Origin: Chryseobacterium sp. KLBC 52
Lineage (GTDB): Bacteria > Bacteroidota > Bacteroidia > Flavobacteriales > Weeksellaceae
Direction: 5' to 3'
Length of the DNA stretch: 64,000 nt
NCBI RefSeq assembly: GCF_003347605.1
Contig: NZ_QDFZ01000019.1
Location: 55,096-119,095 of the forward strand
Made by a program: the position numbers and the translations under genes. The notes beneath the pieces are model-generated. The model searched no databases and was not told the origin of the DNA. It was given only the letters and a program-made list of their open reading frames with translations. This document shows, one piece after another, positions 24,843 to 43,405 of this stretch (positions are counted from its first letter, which is position 1; every line of letters begins with the position of its first letter).

Positions 24843-24950
24843 AGATTTATCAAGAAAGGTGGAGGGATTTGGCCCGTTGAAACCTTAGCAACCTACACGT
24901 TTCCAATAGTGTAAAGGTGCTAATTCCAACCCTTAGGGGGAGATAAGTGA
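24843..24950 (+). promoter_or_regulatory. SAM-I (S-box) riboswitch
   Basis: All conserved S-box blocks are present in order: TTATCAAGAAAGGTGGAGGG, GGCCC, GAAACC, GCAACC, AAGGTGCTAATTCCA and the closing GATAAG (24942-24947), which pairs with TTTATC at 24846-24851. A P4 hairpin is visible at CCCTTAGGGGG. It senses S-adenosylmethionine. TTTCTTGA (24975-24982) can pair with TCAAGAAA (24850-24857) inside the aptamer and could form the alternative state. No poly-U terminator follows, so control may be at translation. It precedes a TonB receptor and amino-acid permease. Confidence 0.93.
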
Positions 24951-38466: not shown

Positions 38467-38967
38467 ATGGCTTATACAGTAGTTTCAGTATTTCCGGTGA
38501 CTGTAAATACAGAGGAAATTAAAAAAGGATTAAAAGAAAAAGGCTTTTACGAAGCAAACATCATTATTTCAAAGTCCAGAGTAGAAAGTGGTATGTCTGC
38601 TGATCAGTATCAGGAAGATAAACAGACGCAGGATTTTTTCGACTATGTTTTTGCTCACGATGCAGAAATGTTGGATGCTTACCGCAAACACAGCATAGGA
38701 AGAAGCAATGTTATCGTTTATACCGATAATCTCGAACAGGCAAAAGCTGCCAAAGAAGTATTAAATGAATATGGAGCTCTTGAAGTCTACCGAAAACCTT
38801 CAGAAAAAAGAGACCCTATTCCGGAGGGTATGACTGAGGATGAATATAATGGTATCATTGCCAAAGCAAGACATAATCTTTACTTTCTCGGCTCAGAAAG
38901 AGTCTATCATTCCAATCAGGTAAAAGGAATGGATGACGAAATGGATAGTCTGGGTTCAAAAGATTAA
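38467..38967 (+). CDS. General-stress-protein-like protein of unknown function
   Basis: 166 residues, cytoplasmic, no signal peptide. The pattern MAYTVVSVFPVTVNTEEIKK, then RSNVIVYTDNLEQAKAAKEV, resembles stress proteins with an N-terminal alpha/beta fold (YflT-like), but similarity is weak. The C-terminus has EGMTEDEYNGIIAKAR. It lies 57 nt after the mutase gene and ends in its own terminator, so it may be co-transcribed with the mutase. Confidence 0.6.
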   Translation: MAYTVVSVFPVTVNTEEIKKGLKEKGFYEANIIISKSRVESGMSADQYQEDKQTQDFFDYVFAHDAEMLDAYRKHSIGRSNVIVYTDNLEQAKAAKEVLNEYGALEVYRKPSEKRDPIPEGMTEDEYNGIIAKARHNLYFLGSERVYHSNQVKGMDDEMDSLGSKD

Positions 38968-38980
38968 TTTCACAATAAAT

Positions 38981-39014
38981 AAAAGACTGGTTATTTTTTT
39001 TACCAGTCTTTTTT
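38981..39014 (+). terminator. Terminator before the leader-peptide attenuator
   Basis: AAAAGACTGGT pairs with ACCAGTCTTTT across a T-rich loop, followed by more T. It isolates the upstream transcript from the promoter at 39028. Confidence 0.85.
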
Positions 39015-39027
39015 ATTAAAAAATATT

Positions 39028-39055
39028 TTGATTTTCAGAAAAATGTATATATTTG
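39028..39055 (+). promoter_or_regulatory. Promoter of the leader RNA upstream of the rtcB-prfH operon
   Basis: TTG (39028-39030), 17-nt spacer, TATATTTG (39048-39055): a full match to TAnnTTTG with an acceptable spacing. The transcript should begin near 39061, about 36 nt before the leader ORF. Confidence 0.7.
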
Positions 39056-39096
39056 CACCTGAAAATCAAGTTTAACCAATAAAAAACAACGAAGCA

Positions 39097-39174
39097 ATGT
39101 TCAGAACTAAACAGAATTCTACAGTTGGATTGCCACTTATGGTGGTAAGGCTTCGCGGTTTGGTACATTCTTAG
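39097..39174 (+). CDS. Leader peptide of attenuator (25 residues)
   Basis: ATG 39097 to TAG 39172-39174. The peptide starts MFRTKQNSTVG and continues LPLMVVRLRGLVHS. Residues 10-23 contain four Leu, four Val and two Arg, like amino-acid operon leader peptides. Leu12 and Leu14 codons lie far enough upstream that a ribosome stalled there would leave the antiterminator segment (39150-39160) free, while one reaching the stop would cover it. A second tiny ORF (39187-39213) runs through the terminator 5' arm. Expression is inferred. Confidence 0.55.
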   Translation: MFRTKQNSTVGLPLMVVRLRGLVHS

Positions 39175-39198
39175 AATAACAGTACAATGAAATATCAG

Positions 39199-39231
39199 AA
39201 CCCGAAGTCGTAGAGATTTCGGGTTTTTTTA
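39199..39231 (+). terminator. Attenuator terminator
   Basis: AACCCGAA (39199-39206) pairs with TTCGGGTT (39218-39225), extended by G-T pairs, followed by a T run. Confidence 0.85.
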
Positions 39232-39289
39232 TTGCGCAATATTTCAAACTTCAAGTTTTCCCGAAATCTTTTTTAGTGTCATCAAGGGC

Positions 39290-39410
39290 AAAATAGGATG
39301 AGGTATATTCCTCAGAACTATTTCGTCTATTATTAATCCATTCAACTAGTGTTTTAGTTGATTAAAAGCTGTGTGAGATAAAAAAACATTAAGGTTTTCA
39401 ACATCTCACA
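39290..39410 (+). other. Three consecutive hairpins in the leader before the rtcB operon
   Basis: Hairpin A: AAATAG (39291-39296) with CTATTT (39318-39323) outside TGAGG/CCTCA. Hairpin B: TCAACTA (39342-39348) with TAGTTGA (39355-39361). Hairpin C: TGTGAGAT (39372-39379) with ATCTCACA (39403-39410), with AAAAC/GTTTT nested. None has a T-tract. They fill the ~200 nt between the attenuator terminator and the first operon gene and may be a structured leader RNA. Chance pairing in AT-rich DNA cannot be excluded. Confidence 0.45.
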
Positions 39411-39427
39411 TCAGACTTCTGTTCACA

Positions 39428-40162
39428 ATGGAAAATGATAACCTTCTGCATTCCCGGCTGAGAAGTGTGAGAAGCAGAAAAAGAGCAATTAGAAAAGATG
39501 TAGAAAAGCAGATAAGAACAAAATACAAACGTAGTAGAGAACTCTGGAAAATAAGAAGAAATCTTCCGTTGATACCATTGGATAAACCCTATCAAAAAGG
39601 ATTTGTAAGATTCTTTGTTGTAAGAGAGGATGTAAAACAATCCAAAGACGGAGATTTTTTCGAAGGAATTTTAAAGAAGATAAATACCTATATGTATTCT
39701 GATAACCGAAAATTTTTAAAAAAGAAAAGAAAGTTCGGAAGAAAGATATATGTAGAAAGAGAGCAGAAGCTCAGGTATATTACTTCATATTCATGGAATT
39801 ATCCAAAATGGGAACTTACCGACAGAGAAAGACAATACTTTGAAAAGAAAGAAGACTATTGCCCTGTCCGTAAGATATTCGGAACCTACTACAAATTTAC
39901 CGAACCATGGCGATTTACTTTAAGGGTAAGACCCAACATGATTACCCATTACAAACCCCTTGATTTGGAGCTGGAAAAAGAATATGCAGCACTGGATTCC
40001 TATTTGGGACAGTATAAGGTAATAGGGATTATGAATAAGACAATTCTATGTAAATCGAATCCATGGAAAGAAACGTATCAAAGAAAACTTATCAAAAGCA
40101 GGAAATATATTACCTGCACAATGTCTGCAACAGAGATTGCAGAAAGCTTACTGGACGAATAA
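39428..40162 (+). CDS. Basic protein of unknown function, first gene of rtcB-prfH operon
   Basis: 244 residues, cytoplasmic, very basic. The N-terminus is dense in Arg/Lys (LRSVRSRKRAIRKDVEKQIR), the middle is Tyr/Trp-rich (YITSYSWNYPKWELTDRERQ) and a Cys pair is loosely spaced. No catalytic motif or known domain was recognised. The charge suggests RNA or ribosome binding. It lies 27 nt before the rtcB gene and 18 nt after hairpin C, so it is probably co-transcribed with the RNA-repair genes. A function in rRNA handling is inference from context only. Confidence 0.75.
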   Translation: MENDNLLHSRLRSVRSRKRAIRKDVEKQIRTKYKRSRELWKIRRNLPLIPLDKPYQKGFVRFFVVREDVKQSKDGDFFEGILKKINTYMYSDNRKFLKKKRKFGRKIYVEREQKLRYITSYSWNYPKWELTDRERQYFEKKEDYCPVRKIFGTYYKFTEPWRFTLRVRPNMITHYKPLDLELEKEYAALDSYLGQYKVIGIMNKTILCKSNPWKETYQRKLIKSRKYITCTMSATEIAESLLDE

Positions 40163-40189: not shown

Positions 40190-41581
40190 ATGGGAAATTT
40201 AAAACTAAAAGGAAAAGATATATTAAAACTGGGCTATCCAAATAACCAAAGTGTAAACGTAGCATTGGAAGTCATGAAAAGAAATTTTGCAACAAAGAAT
40301 ATTCACCACGTAAAATCTCTTTTAAAGGAAATCCTGCTGAATCCGGAAGAATTTGAAAAAGATCTGACTTTCGGACAAATCGCAGAAACCCTGCTTTCAT
40401 CCAAAAAAACAGAAAAAAGAATGCTGAATTCACAGCGGGCTTCCTTTCAGATTTTTGGAAACAATATTTCAGAAGAGGCAAAAAATCAGTTATACACTGC
40501 TTTGAAACTGCCTGTTTCTACTCAGGGAGCATTAATGCCAGATGCCCACAGCGGGTACGGACTTCCCATAGGAGGAGTTCTGGCAGTAGAAAATGCGGTA
40601 ATTCCTTACGGAGTAGGCATGGATATTGGCTGTAGAATGAGCCTCAGTATTTTGGATACACCCGTTTCATATCTTGAAGGAGCAAGAGATAAATATGAAA
40701 AAGCCCTTGCTGAACATACAAAATTTGGAATGTATGAAACGCATAAATCTCACATAGATCATGAGATTTTTGACAGAGATACATTTGATATGATCCCGAT
40801 CTTAAGAAGATTAAAGGGAAAAGCCATCAAACAGATGGGATCCTCAGGCGGAGGAAATCACTTTGTAGAATTCGGAGAAGTGGAAATCACTGAAGAAGAC
40901 GAACAAATTGGTCTGCCAAAAGGAAAATATCTGGGAATACTTTCTCACAGCGGTTCCAGAGGGTTGGGAGCAGAAATCGCACAGTATTATTCAAGAATGG
41001 CCACAGAACAGTGTCCGTTACCGAAAGAAGCACAAAACTTCGCATGGCTGGATTTGAGTACCCATCTTGGACTGGAATACTGGACGGCCATGAATCTTGC
41101 CGGAGATTACGCTTCAGCCTGTCACGATGATATTCACAGAAGGCTGGTAAAAGCAGTCGGTGGAAGGGTAAAAGCCAGAATTGAGAACCATCACAACTTT
41201 GCATGGAAGGAAATTCATAACGGTAAAGAAGTGATTGTTCACCGAAAAGGAGCTACACCTGCCAATGAAAACGAATTGGGGATGATCCCGGGATCCATGA
41301 CTGCAAAAGGATTTATCGTTCGCGGAAAAGGAAATCCGGAATCTTTGAATTCAGCATCACATGGTGCAGGAAGAGCCCATTCAAGAGGAGAATGCAGAAG
41401 TCTTTTCACTCAGCATGATATCAAAAAAGAACTCAAACTGAAAAATGTCACATTGATGGGCGGAAATGCAGAAGAAGCACCAATGGCCTACAAAGACATC
41501 AATGAGGTGATGAATGCACAGAGTGAACTGGTAGATATTCTGGGAACATTCCAGCCGAGAATTGTAAGAATGGACAAATAA
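40190..41581 (+). CDS. rtcB: RtcB-family RNA ligase (RtcB2-like)
   Basis: A GTP-dependent ligase joining 2',3'-cyclic phosphate or 3'-phosphate and 5'-OH RNA ends. 463 residues. Metal and catalytic motifs: MPDAHSGYGLPIGGVL, GVGMDIGCRM with the metal Cys, GGGNHFVEFGEV, LSHSGSRGLG, ARIENHHNFAWKE, HRKGATPA and the guanylylation His in SASHGAGRAHSR (about residue 390). The partner gene prfH two genes downstream places it with the RtcB2-PrfH pairing, reported to mend 16S rRNA cut in the decoding centre. No archease gene is adjacent. Confidence 0.92.
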   Translation: MGNLKLKGKDILKLGYPNNQSVNVALEVMKRNFATKNIHHVKSLLKEILLNPEEFEKDLTFGQIAETLLSSKKTEKRMLNSQRASFQIFGNNISEEAKNQLYTALKLPVSTQGALMPDAHSGYGLPIGGVLAVENAVIPYGVGMDIGCRMSLSILDTPVSYLEGARDKYEKALAEHTKFGMYETHKSHIDHEIFDRDTFDMIPILRRLKGKAIKQMGSSGGGNHFVEFGEVEITEEDEQIGLPKGKYLGILSHSGSRGLGAEIAQYYSRMATEQCPLPKEAQNFAWLDLSTHLGLEYWTAMNLAGDYASACHDDIHRRLVKAVGGRVKARIENHHNFAWKEIHNGKEVIVHRKGATPANENELGMIPGSMTAKGFIVRGKGNPESLNSASHGAGRAHSRGECRSLFTQHDIKKELKLKNVTLMGGNAEEAPMAYKDINEVMNAQSELVDILGTFQPRIVRMDK

Positions 41582-41658: not shown

Positions 41659-42204
41659 ATGGGAGCCCCACACAATATAAAAAGATACGGTGAAGTCTGG
41701 CCGGAATTCAGAATTCAGTCAGGACTCGAAATTTTAGACAAATTAAAACACAAAGTGATTATATCAGGCGGCTGGGCATGGCATTTCATGTCTGAAACAG
41801 GACATACCGAATACAAGCATGCCCATGACCACAAGGATATTGATGTTTTTGTAAAAAAAGAAAATGTAGCAGAAGTAGTTATTATTCTTCAGCAGGAAGG
41901 ATTCCGGAAAGTCTGGACCCGATATGACTATCTGCCAAGTGAAGAAAACTTTCGCAGGTATGAAAAAACCGTCGAGCTGGAAAATGAAAAATTTCACAGA
42001 GTTACCATAGATTTCTTTGAAAGAGATGATCTTGAAACAATTGAAACTAATGGTTTTACTGTTGTGAAACCTGATGTTTTACTTTCCTTTTACAGAAATA
42101 TTCATTCCAGTGACAAATGCTGGGCAGTGATGGCCGCAAAAGAATTATTACAAAAGGGAATAAATCCGGTAGGAAACCCTTTATTAAGCAAAATGCCAAT
42201 ATAA
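41659..42204 (+). CDS. Nucleotidyltransferase-fold protein
   Basis: 181 residues. The pol-beta-type nucleotidyltransferase signature is visible: Gly-Gly turn in IISGGWAWHF (Gly37-Gly38), acidic pair in HDHKDIDVFV (Asp60, Asp62) and a third acid in TIDFFER (about 118). The GGWA...H.DID pattern is close to ANT(2'')/LinA-like small-molecule adenylyltransferases, but here it sits between an RNA ligase and a release factor. This raises the possibility of nucleotide addition to damaged RNA. Only 3 nt separate it from prfH. Confidence 0.7.
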   Translation: MGAPHNIKRYGEVWPEFRIQSGLEILDKLKHKVIISGGWAWHFMSETGHTEYKHAHDHKDIDVFVKKENVAEVVIILQQEGFRKVWTRYDYLPSEENFRRYEKTVELENEKFHRVTIDFFERDDLETIETNGFTVVKPDVLLSFYRNIHSSDKCWAVMAAKELLQKGINPVGNPLLSKMPI

Positions 42205-42207
42205 AAA

Positions 42208-42906
42208 ATGGAAAAATTAATACAGATCACTTCGGGAAGAGGTCCTTTAGAATGCCAGTGGGTAGTAGCCAAGGTTCTGAAGACCTTTCTTGAAGAGGCA
42301 AAACACAATACAATAGAATATGAAATCATTCATCGTGAAAACGGGGATGAAAACCTGACATTAAAATCAGTAACCCTGCTTTTGAAAGGAAAAGATCTAA
42401 GCTTGTTTTTAAAAAGCTGGCTGGGAAGTATTTGCTGGATAGGAAAAAGTACATTCAGAAAGCTCCATAAAAGAAGCAATTGGTTCATCGGAATTTTCGA
42501 ATTGGAAAATGTAAAAATGATTGATTTCCACGAAAAAGATATCCGGTTTCAGACTACAAGAAGTCAGGGAAGCGGAGGACAAAATGTAAATAAGGTGAAT
42601 ACAGCTGTCCGTGCCATTCATATTCCCACCAATGAAACTGTTTTTGTACAAGATTCCCGTTCGCAGCTGGAGAATAAAAAACTGTCTGTAACCAGACTCA
42701 AAGAAAAGGTGATGGCAGTTTATATCCAACAACTGGAAAGAAAATTGAAAGAAACCTGGTCTCTCCAGATGCAGGTAGAACGCGGAAGTCCGGTTCGTAC
42801 ATTCTCGGGGACGGATTTTAAAAAGAATTACGAAGACAAGACATTCAAAAAACAAAGGAATGCCTTGAAAAATGACTTAAAAAACTACAGAAATGACCTT
42901 AACTAA
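42208..42906 (+). CDS. prfH: Peptide chain release factor H
   Basis: 232 residues, much shorter than RF1/RF2 (~360). The N-terminal coiled-coil domain 1 is absent. The peptidyl-tRNA hydrolysis motif GGQ lies in [20 protein letters not shown] (about 122-124). A C-terminal Lys-rich tail follows. Neither the PxT nor SPF stop-codon motif of RF1/RF2 was found. PrfH with RtcB2 is known to act on ribosomes whose decoding centre is cleaved, releasing the stalled peptide so the rRNA can be resealed. It lies 3 nt after the nucleotidyltransferase gene and overlaps the TPR gene by 14 nt. Confidence 0.93.
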   Translation: MEKLIQITSGRGPLECQWVVAKVLKTFLEEAKHNTIEYEIIHRENGDENLTLKSVTLLLKGKDLSLFLKSWLGSICWIGKSTFRKLHKRSNWFIGIFELENVKMIDFHEKDIRFQTTRSQGSGGQNVNKVNTAVRAIHIPTNETVFVQDSRSQLENKKLSVTRLKEKVMAVYIQQLERKLKETWSLQMQVERGSPVRTFSGTDFKKNYEDKTFKKQRNALKNDLKNYRNDLN

Positions 42907-43405
42907 AAGTAAATATTATTTTGAAGCGCTGGACTACTTTCCGTTCAACCTTGCCGAGTGCATGGATGCATTGAACTACGCTCTGTCCTATGAACCGGAA
43001 GATGCAGACAGTCTTTGTCTCATGGGAAGAATATATTCAGAAGAACTGAAAGATTATGAAACCGCAAAAAAATACTTCGATGAAGCCATGCAGAGTAATA
43101 TCGGGAATATTAATACTCCCAAATATTATATTGAATGTCTACTGAGTAATGAAGATTACAAAGAAGCAGAAAAACTGATTGAATTTGCCTTGAAACTCAA
43201 AGGAATTGATAAGTCGGAAATCCTCACCTGTCTTTCTCTTCTGCAGGAGAAAAACTTTGAGTACAAACAGGCTTTGGCGACCCTGAAAGAAGCTAAAAAA
43301 TTTGCTTACAACCGTGCAGCCCTCGAAATTATTGAAGACAGAGAAAAAATGATTAAAGGTAAAATGCCGGTAACAAGAATTAAAAAGAAAGTGGAGACCC
43401 AATAA
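42893..43405 (+). CDS. TPR-repeat protein, last gene of rtcB-prfH operon
   Basis: 170 residues, cytoplasmic, with three to four tetratricopeptide-like helix pairs: LAECMDALNYALSYEPEDAD, SLCLMGRIYSEELKDYETAK, KYFDEAMQSNIGN, YKEAEKLIEFALKLKGID, YKQALATLKEAKKFAYNR. The tail is basic (RIKKKVE). It overlaps prfH by 14 nt, so translation is coupled, and an immediate terminator ends the operon. It probably acts as a scaffold for protein contacts in the same pathway; this is inference. Confidence 0.8.
   Translation: MTLTKSKYYFEALDYFPFNLAECMDALNYALSYEPEDADSLCLMGRIYSEELKDYETAKKYFDEAMQSNIGNINTPKYYIECLLSNEDYKEAEKLIEFALKLKGIDKSEILTCLSLLQEKNFEYKQALATLKEAKKFAYNRAALEIIEDREKMIKGKMPVTRIKKKVETQ

Follow-up and report, generated by a model that had tools for sequence, protein, structure and literature searches.

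A predicted ribosome-mediated transcription attenuator ahead of the rtcB-prfH ribosome-repair operon in Flavobacteriales

Introduction

What controls the transcription of a ribosome-repair operon, and whether the translation of a short leader may decide it, is the question raised by a region ahead of the genes encoding RNA ligase RtcB and release factor H (PrfH) in Chryseobacterium sp. KLBC 52. According to the part of the E. coli study available to us, PrfH releases and RtcB2 reseals ribosomes cut by colicin E3 (PMC9223846). The available portions of open-licence papers state no inducer of the PrfH-RtcB system beyond a Pseudomonas leader, to which we return in the Discussion. A preliminary description of the Chryseobacterium region proposed a leader-peptide attenuator, possibly responsive to leucine and valine, and gave a displaced leader of a branched-chain amino acid operon as the alternative. 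Here, we follow the element through the genus, family, order, and class of its host. The window is the whole 64,000-nt stretch of DNA that was analysed; genomes are labelled with G-numbers and loci with L-numbers.

Results

Anatomy of the element and of the operon behind it

The element is present in a single copy in the 4.86 Mb source genome of the window. Its parts, together with the genes that follow it, are listed in Table 1.

Table 1. Positions in the window of the parts of the element and of the genes downstream
Feature	Position	Strand	Remarks
Promoter	TTTG 39027-39030, TATATTTGC 39048-39056	+	sole TAnnTTTG in 38961-39440
Arm 1	39089-39095	+	adjoins leader start codon
Leader ORF	39097-39174	+	25 codons, then TAG
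Hairpin within leader ORF	39130-39148	+	5 of 8 pairs changed on both sides in genus
Arm 2, 5' arm of antiterminator	39149-39160	+	inside leader ORF
Arm 3	39199-39209	+	common to antiterminator and terminator
Arm 4 and T run, intrinsic terminator	39215-39231	+	
Arm 5	39260-39270	+	complementary to arm 4, past terminator
Gene of 244-aa protein, no known family	39428-40162	+	first gene past attenuator
rtcB, RNA ligase	40190-41581	+	PF01139, 270 bits
Nucleotidyltransferase-like gene	41659-42204	+	PF10706, 24.5 bits, cut-off 21; presence varies
prfH, release factor H	42208-42906	+	TIGR03072, 203.8 bits, cut-off 166.65
Gene of TPR protein	42893-43405	+	next after prfH

The consensus promoter named in the preliminary description is there: it carries the only match in the scanned region to TAnnTTTG, which we take to be the -7 promoter motif of Bacteroidota. 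The leader ORF, with its ATG at 39097-39099 and its TAG stop at 39172-39174, encodes the peptide MFRTKQNSTVGLPLMVVRLRGLVHS and has eight Leu/Val codons at residues 10-23, exactly as had been described. The three mutually exclusive pairings proposed earlier were found as well, namely, arm 1 with arm 2 (1:2; CGAAGC 39090-39095 with GCTTCG 39150-39155, -9.6 kcal/mol), arm 2 with arm 3 (2:3; 39149-39160 with 39199-39209, one bulged base, -16.3 kcal/mol), and arm 3 with arm 4 (3:4; 39197-39209 with 39215-39227, followed by the T run, -18.6 kcal/mol). The hairpin within the ORF and arm 5 are additions to the preliminary description. The 177-nt RNA folds to an energy not reached by any of 200 dinucleotide shuffles (z = -3.45). 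Among the 23 terminators that score at least 18 with a simple finder on both strands of the window, the one at 39231 has the best upstream alternative partner (z = -3.7; the next ones have -2.0 and -1.0). Elsewhere in the window, there is a SAM riboswitch (24844-24949, 82.5 bits).

Searches for known RNAs and for mobile copies gave little. The sole Rfam match with E < 0.01, the Bacteroides small RNA family BTnc005 (RF04178), was rejected with its 27.7 bits against a gathering score of 174.8. In a phylum search, BTnc005 matches were scattered over 18 of 198 genomes, all of them short of the cut-off; with stricter filters, the genome of the window gave no match. The 6S RNA candidate occupies a separate place in that genome and is itself below its family cut-off. 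The DNA of the leader had no match in plasmids.

The earlier assignment of an RNA ligase and a release factor to the genes downstream stands; these genes are not the next ones, since a gene encoding a protein of 244 aa precedes them. This protein is basic, and its homologues recur at rtcB-prfH loci within and beyond the order (L163, L173, L184, L205, L209, L215, and others); in the genus, its gene was detected at 54 of 89 loci. Pfam, NCBIfam, and PADLOC assigned it to no family at the thresholds used, and the comparison of its AF2 model (pLDDT 81) and sequence with solved structures gave nothing convincing (best E 0.55 for the fold and 0.079 for the sequence).

Linkage of the element to prfH

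Matches to the element were obtained in 147 of 148 genomes of the genus, including G123, where the match lies at the end of a contig and covers just 58 bases. At all 89 genus loci that were read (29 from the search output and 60 more diverged), rtcB lies downstream on the same strand, at a distance of 240-1649 nt, and the upstream neighbours vary. The frame of the leader ORF is open in 52 of 52 aligned genus sequences (vs. 6 and 30 for the other two frames), and 51 of them have TAG as the stop codon. This alignment (A1) comprises 52 of 90 genus sequences after the exclusion of near-identical ones; it includes the three of the 89 loci (L035, L053, and L067) that a regular expression for the arm pattern missed. 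An alignment of the region upstream of rtcB-prfH across relatives had been suggested in the preliminary description, and both the stems and the ORF proved to be conserved there.

At the level of the family, a covariance model built from the genus sequences (R1) matched 87 of 197 genomes with at least 42 bits, and prfH, called by TIGR03072 scores over the cut-off, was found in 92. The element and prfH occurred together in 83 genomes, the element only in 4, prfH only in 9, and neither in 101 (Fisher p ~1e-39 for the whole family and 5e-23 outside the genus, for genomes that are related and thus not independent trials). The nine genomes with prfH only have a diverged element, recognised by the pattern in seven and by eye in one (L176); in the ninth (L181), which has lost rtcB, the leader immediately precedes prfH. 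All 92 prfH-positive genomes of the family thus carry the element, 83 by the model and nine by inspection. In the four genomes with the element only, the operon has decayed to various degrees: rtcB and a 64-aa prfH match remain behind the element in G493, rtcB is present and prfH absent from the stretch read in G391, and the TPR gene is kept while rtcB and prfH are absent in G348. In G147 (L183, 690-900), there are leader arms 1-4, arm 5 was not seen, and the stretch read contains none of the operon genes; this leader is probably an orphan left after the loss of the operon.

In the order, prfH is present in 62 of 296 genomes. A second model (R2), built from 31 diverse loci, matched all 62 of them with more than 60 bits and none of the 234 genomes without prfH. 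Fifteen of the 62 had served in its building; of the prfH genomes outside the family that had not, 10 of 10 were found. The match lies 1.7-4.1 kb from prfH on one contig in 61 genomes and is split from it over two contigs in the draft genome G004. We inspected 20 of the 23 prfH loci outside the family, of which 19 fit the arm pattern and one (L198) was recognised by eye; the genomes not among these 20 (G605, G609, and G656) are all matched by R2. The next-best R2 match, with 53.9 bits in G621, is a true leader before the TPR gene alone. L156 and L218, from genomes of two different families, have lost rtcB and prfH and keep only the TPR gene after the leader. Low R1 or R2 matches that were opened (L166-L172, L219-L221, and L225; below 48.1 bits, with 47.7 for L170) had no rtcB or prfH in the stretch, and four of them (L219-L221 and L225, at most 48 bits) resemble ordinary gene-end terminators. 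An in-frame ORF is present in all 48 family and order loci matched by the regular expression, which missed three of 51 rtcB loci (L150, L176, and L198, where the element was found by eye or by the model); three further loci are without rtcB (L156, L181, and L183). The tie of the attenuator to the rtcB-prfH operon, first proposed from one locus, therefore holds across the order, in 62 of 62 prfH genomes.

Covariation of the arms

In an arm-swap test of 31 non-redundant family and order loci of 49, arms paired better with their native partners than with those of other loci, none of 5000 permutations being as low in any of the three pairings (2:3, -14.45 vs. -11.65 kcal/mol; 1:2, -9.54 vs. -7.86 kcal/mol; 3:4, -17.48 vs. 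-13.53 kcal/mol). Alignment A3 comprised 31 loci picked for diversity. In an alignment unfitted to structure, the antiterminator is paired in 84.6% of cells vs. 79.0% after shuffling (0/500), and its covariation score in the between-family alignment is 0.201 vs. 0.107 (0/500). The number of double-change pairs was reached by 30 of 500 shuffles, and that of pair types by 342 of 500.

Within the genus, the terminator-state structure is paired in 99.0% of cells vs. 95.2% after shuffling, with 73 vs. 27.7 double-change cells. The main source of this covariation is the in-ORF hairpin, in which some sequences have CCACTTATGGTGG and others CCTTTTGCAAAGG. Within the genus, arms 2 and 3 are near-invariant (96.3% of cells paired, zero double changes), and since they hardly vary, the genus by itself does not prove the antiterminator, the support for which comes from the comparison between families. 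For instance, arm 3 of the genus, AACCCGAAG, goes with CTTCG.GGTT in arm 2; AAGCCCGAAG goes with CTTCG.GGCTT in L184, and GTAATCCGAAG with CTTCG.GATTAC in L196. In L202, AAGTCCGAAG goes with CTTCA.GGACTT, and arm 1 co-changes to TGAAG. The covariation check put forward in the preliminary description thus gives a positive answer for all three stems between families, and a negative one for 2:3 within the genus. What covariation keeps between families is a mutually exclusive antiterminator and terminator that share one arm, the other arm of the antiterminator lying in the ORF.

Promoter position and arm 5

The TAnnTTTG motif occurs at most 60 nt ahead of arm 1 in all 86 genus loci and at most 70 nt ahead of it in 39 of 48 family and order loci, the other nine being without it; by chance, it was found in 72 of 2170 60-nt windows. 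Past the terminator, the motif is absent from all 48 family and order loci (90 nt) and present in one of 86 genus loci (190 nt), which speaks against a separate operon promoter of this type nearby. An operon promoter of another type, or one further downstream, is compatible with this motif search. In the window itself, a separate promoter after 39231 had been named as an observation that would speak against the attenuator, and the scan for TAnnTTTG found none from there to 39440.

Arm 5 pairs with arm 4 at -16.2 kcal/mol. A CCCG[AG]A motif follows the T run by 26-35 nt in 89 of 90 genus sequences, compared with 48 of 1085 random 80-nt windows. At 47 loci, arm 4 paired with its downstream sequence at -10.97 vs. 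-9.64 kcal/mol for permuted partners (0/5000 as low) and -5.14 after shuffling of the 50 downstream nucleotides. Arm 5 is missing in L163 and L165 and borderline in L185 and L191 (p 0.05 and 0.065). As it is present only in read-through RNA, we argue that read-through is part of the design; probably, arm 5 takes arm 4 and holds transcripts that have passed the terminator in the antiterminated state.

Ribosome position and the stop codon of the leader

Results of folding with a ribosome mask of 31 nt, performed on RNA ending at arm 3 for 11 of 48 loci spanning the groups, suggest by computation that the position of a ribosome can switch the fold. Pairing 2:3 forms with a ribosome at codons 1 to about 13 and, in 11 of 11 loci, is almost abolished at some point from codon 15 to codon 21; it is weakened with a ribosome at codons 7-13 in L193 (0.72-1.02 vs. 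1.39) and at codons 10-11 in L161. A ribosome on the stop codon blocks 2:3 near-completely in 8 of 11 loci and partially in the window (0.95 vs. 1.61 unmasked), in L152 (0.61 vs. 1.32), and in L154 (0.75 vs. 1.46 with a ribosome at codon 1). In equilibrium folding with no ribosome, 2:3 is favoured in 8 of 11 loci, and 1:2 competes with it in L154, L190, and L193. Since 2:3 mostly wins without a ribosome, to be in the off state an untranslated RNA would mostly need 1:2 to form first.

The end of the stop codon lies 24 nt past the first C of the arm 2 CTTC in 116 of 134 loci (genus, 85 of 86; family, 14 of 29; order, 17 of 19), a distance that places a terminating ribosome on arm 2. Leaders have 25-29 codons in nearly all loci and 19 in two (L164 and L165), where they end ahead of arm 2. 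In L154, L155, L157, L158, and L159, both the ORF and arm 2 persist, with a one-base offset of the arm relative to the frame. The leader peptide and the hairpin within the ORF vary between families, and again the ORF and the arms stay. Synonymous changes amount to 45 of 141 in the frame of the leader vs. 35 of 163 and 30 of 147 in the other two, a modest excess, so selection on the leader peptide is weakly shown.

Discussion

Taken together, sequence comparisons lead us to propose, with a probability of about 0.83, that the element is a ribosome-mediated transcription attenuator controlling the rtcB-prfH ribosome-repair operon. RNA polymerase would start near 39058. A ribosome moving at normal speed would reach about codon 17 onward and cover arm 2, the 3:4 terminator would form, and the operon would be off. 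A ribosome that stalls or crawls within about the first 13 codons, be it due to decoding-centre damage, a drug block, or starvation, would cover arm 1 or leave it behind with arm 2 free to pair with arm 3, by which termination would be prevented. RtcB, PrfH, and their companions would then be made, stuck ribosomes freed, and 16S rRNA resealed, with arm 5 capturing arm 4. The finding of the element in every examined prfH genome of the order suggests that these cells sense damaged or blocked ribosomes by way of test translation.

Three other explanations deserve consideration, and the one closest to the preliminary description is the least probable of them: starvation for leucine and valine as the signal, or a displaced ilv/leu leader, would have very little chance of being correct. 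The run of Leu/Val codons in the window speaks for it, as do the conservation of two of these codons in the genus (Leu at codon 12 in 51 of 52 rows and Val at codon 23 in 52 of 52) and the Leu+Val share of codons 2-17, which is 0.24 in the genus and similarly high in two nearer groups of the family (0.23 and 0.34). This share falls to 0.09 in a distant group of the family and to 0.16 in the rest of the order, and no such run exists in L173 or in the short leaders of L164 and L165, so the proposed Leu/Val sensing is not borne out. Nor did we see an ilv/leu context in the loci read; the displaced leader is rejected because the element coincides with prfH and goes with rtcB/prfH or with operon remains. 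As the Leu/Val codons are not conserved beyond a part of the family, the signal would be the position of the ribosome in general. Early ribosome failure of any kind, rather than shortage of one amino acid, is the likely trigger, and the action of PrfH and RtcB2 on cut ribosomes fits such a signal.

It is also very improbable, if slightly less so, that the element is an independent small RNA (about 175 nt) acting in trans, located upstream of the operon by chance and with an incidental ORF. The strong promoter and terminator, the high sequence conservation, the weak full-length match to BTnc005, and the orphan copy without the operon in G147 would suit it. Against it, we set the linkage to prfH over the order, the in-frame ORF in every locus matched by the regular expression, the covariation of alternative arms, and the complementarity that extends past the terminator into arm 5; moreover, the BTnc005 matches elsewhere are scattered and weak, and the match in G009 is away from the element. 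A switch independent of translation, in which a protein such as RtcB or RNA ends would choose the fold of the leader, is very unlikely too, though we rate it just above the small RNA. All three pairings can form without a ribosome, and in E. coli, RtcR senses RNA ends by means of its CARF domain, according to the accessible part of the relevant paper (PMC12606134). Against such a switch, we set an ORF whose start adjoins arm 1 and whose stop keeps a near-constant distance from arm 2, and the persistence of the ORF and the arms in families that differ in the peptide and in the hairpin within the ORF.

In the attenuators of the enterobacterial trp and his leaders, pause, antiterminator, and terminator pairings alternate, and the position of the ribosome decides between them. 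The Flavobacteriales element resembles them in its arms 1-4 and in the predicted role of ribosome position; it differs in the location of arm 1 at the start codon, in the extra arm 5, and in having no regulatory amino acid run that is conserved across families. The closest precedent is the 13-codon leader PA5471.1 of P. aeruginosa, located about 250 bp upstream of armZ, an rtcB-like gene co-transcribed with prfH (PA5470); transcription attenuation has been proposed for it, and ribosome-targeting drugs induce it, as described in the available parts of three papers (PMC3516279, PMC12057347, and PMC13041342). In common with our element, this leader ORF precedes an rtcB-like/prfH operon, and stalled ribosomes are proposed to prevent the 3:4 terminator. 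On the side of the differences, which we judge by description only, PA5471.1 has 13 codons vs. 25-29 in nearly all of our leaders, and ArmZ connects it to MexXY efflux; a fifth arm and covariation, features of our element, are unmentioned for PA5471.1 in those parts. The principle of attenuation before prfH operons is, by this precedent, already known.

Two E. coli systems share other traits with the element, again as far as the available parts of the sources go. The toiL uORF of topAI-yjhQ likewise responds to a wide range of translation stresses, among them stalling at the start codon; unlike the element, it acts on translation initiation and Rho termination rather than on an intrinsic terminator (PMC12121999). 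RtcR with sigma-54 regulates the RtcB repair operon rtcBA; RtcR is a protein that detects RNA ends and works at the promoter (PMC12606134).

In Bacteroidota, we found no description of such a leader before rtcB-prfH among the listed matches in the open-licence literature, available in part. A transcriptome study of Flavobacterium psychrophilum reports leader-peptide attenuation ahead of amino acid biosynthesis operons (PMC9723704), and short ORFs reminiscent of leader peptides were noted in long 5' regions of Bacteroides thetaiotaomicron (PMC7366714); in the accessible main text of both papers, rtcB and prfH are unmentioned. What appears new here is arm 5, the nearly fixed spacing between arm 2 and the stop codon, and the two genomes with the TPR gene alone behind the leader.

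If the proposed reading is correct, it offers a concrete, order-wide switch, the start codon, stop distance, and arms 1-5 of which can be mutated separately. The signal that it suggests is any ribosome failing early in elongation, rather than free RNA ends or the lack of an amino acid. It also links the 244-aa and TPR proteins, both unstudied, with the repair of ribosomes; in Bacteroidota, toxins and drugs that target ribosomes may be detected early by a readout built on this logic.

A wider idea, which we put forward tentatively and with more doubt than belief, is that attenuation by a leader ORF is a general bacterial way of controlling PrfH-RtcB, with the five-arm switch as its form in Flavobacteriales, where arm 5 locks the on-state. 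If this were true, ribosomes cut in the decoding centre would still initiate but stall within the first codons, thereby inducing their own repair, and the leaders of other orders, E. coli, alphaproteobacterial plasmids, and Pseudomonas would be either repeated inventions or deep descendants. In the class, prfH is present in 22 of 295 genomes, and 14 loci lie outside the order. The arm pattern of Flavobacteriales was found in none of the 12 loci of other orders that were scored, L205 and L208 being outside these 12. The contig of L204 carries other DNA upstream, and L206 is without a convincing leader. In 5 of 11 class loci (L210, L212, L214, L216, and L217), there is a terminator with an upstream alternative partner 99-185 nt ahead of rtcB (z from -2.0 to -3.4, p 0.00-0.06).

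Shine-Dalgarno-like sites are rare in Bacteroidota, and they are absent from the 48 Flavobacteriales leaders. An ORF of 8-20 codons with such a site occurs within 300 nt in 5 of 13 class loci, compared with 49 of 560 random windows, and in four of five named plasmid records, including one of E. coli, compared with 35 of 500 random ones. Four other named records have short ORFs that show no visible likeness. We treat the leader-like ORFs outside Flavobacteriales as leads only. In other Bacteroidota, such ORFs with Shine-Dalgarno-like sites were observed in L205, L207, L208, L209, L211, and L226, where they precede rtcB-prfH or its companion gene.
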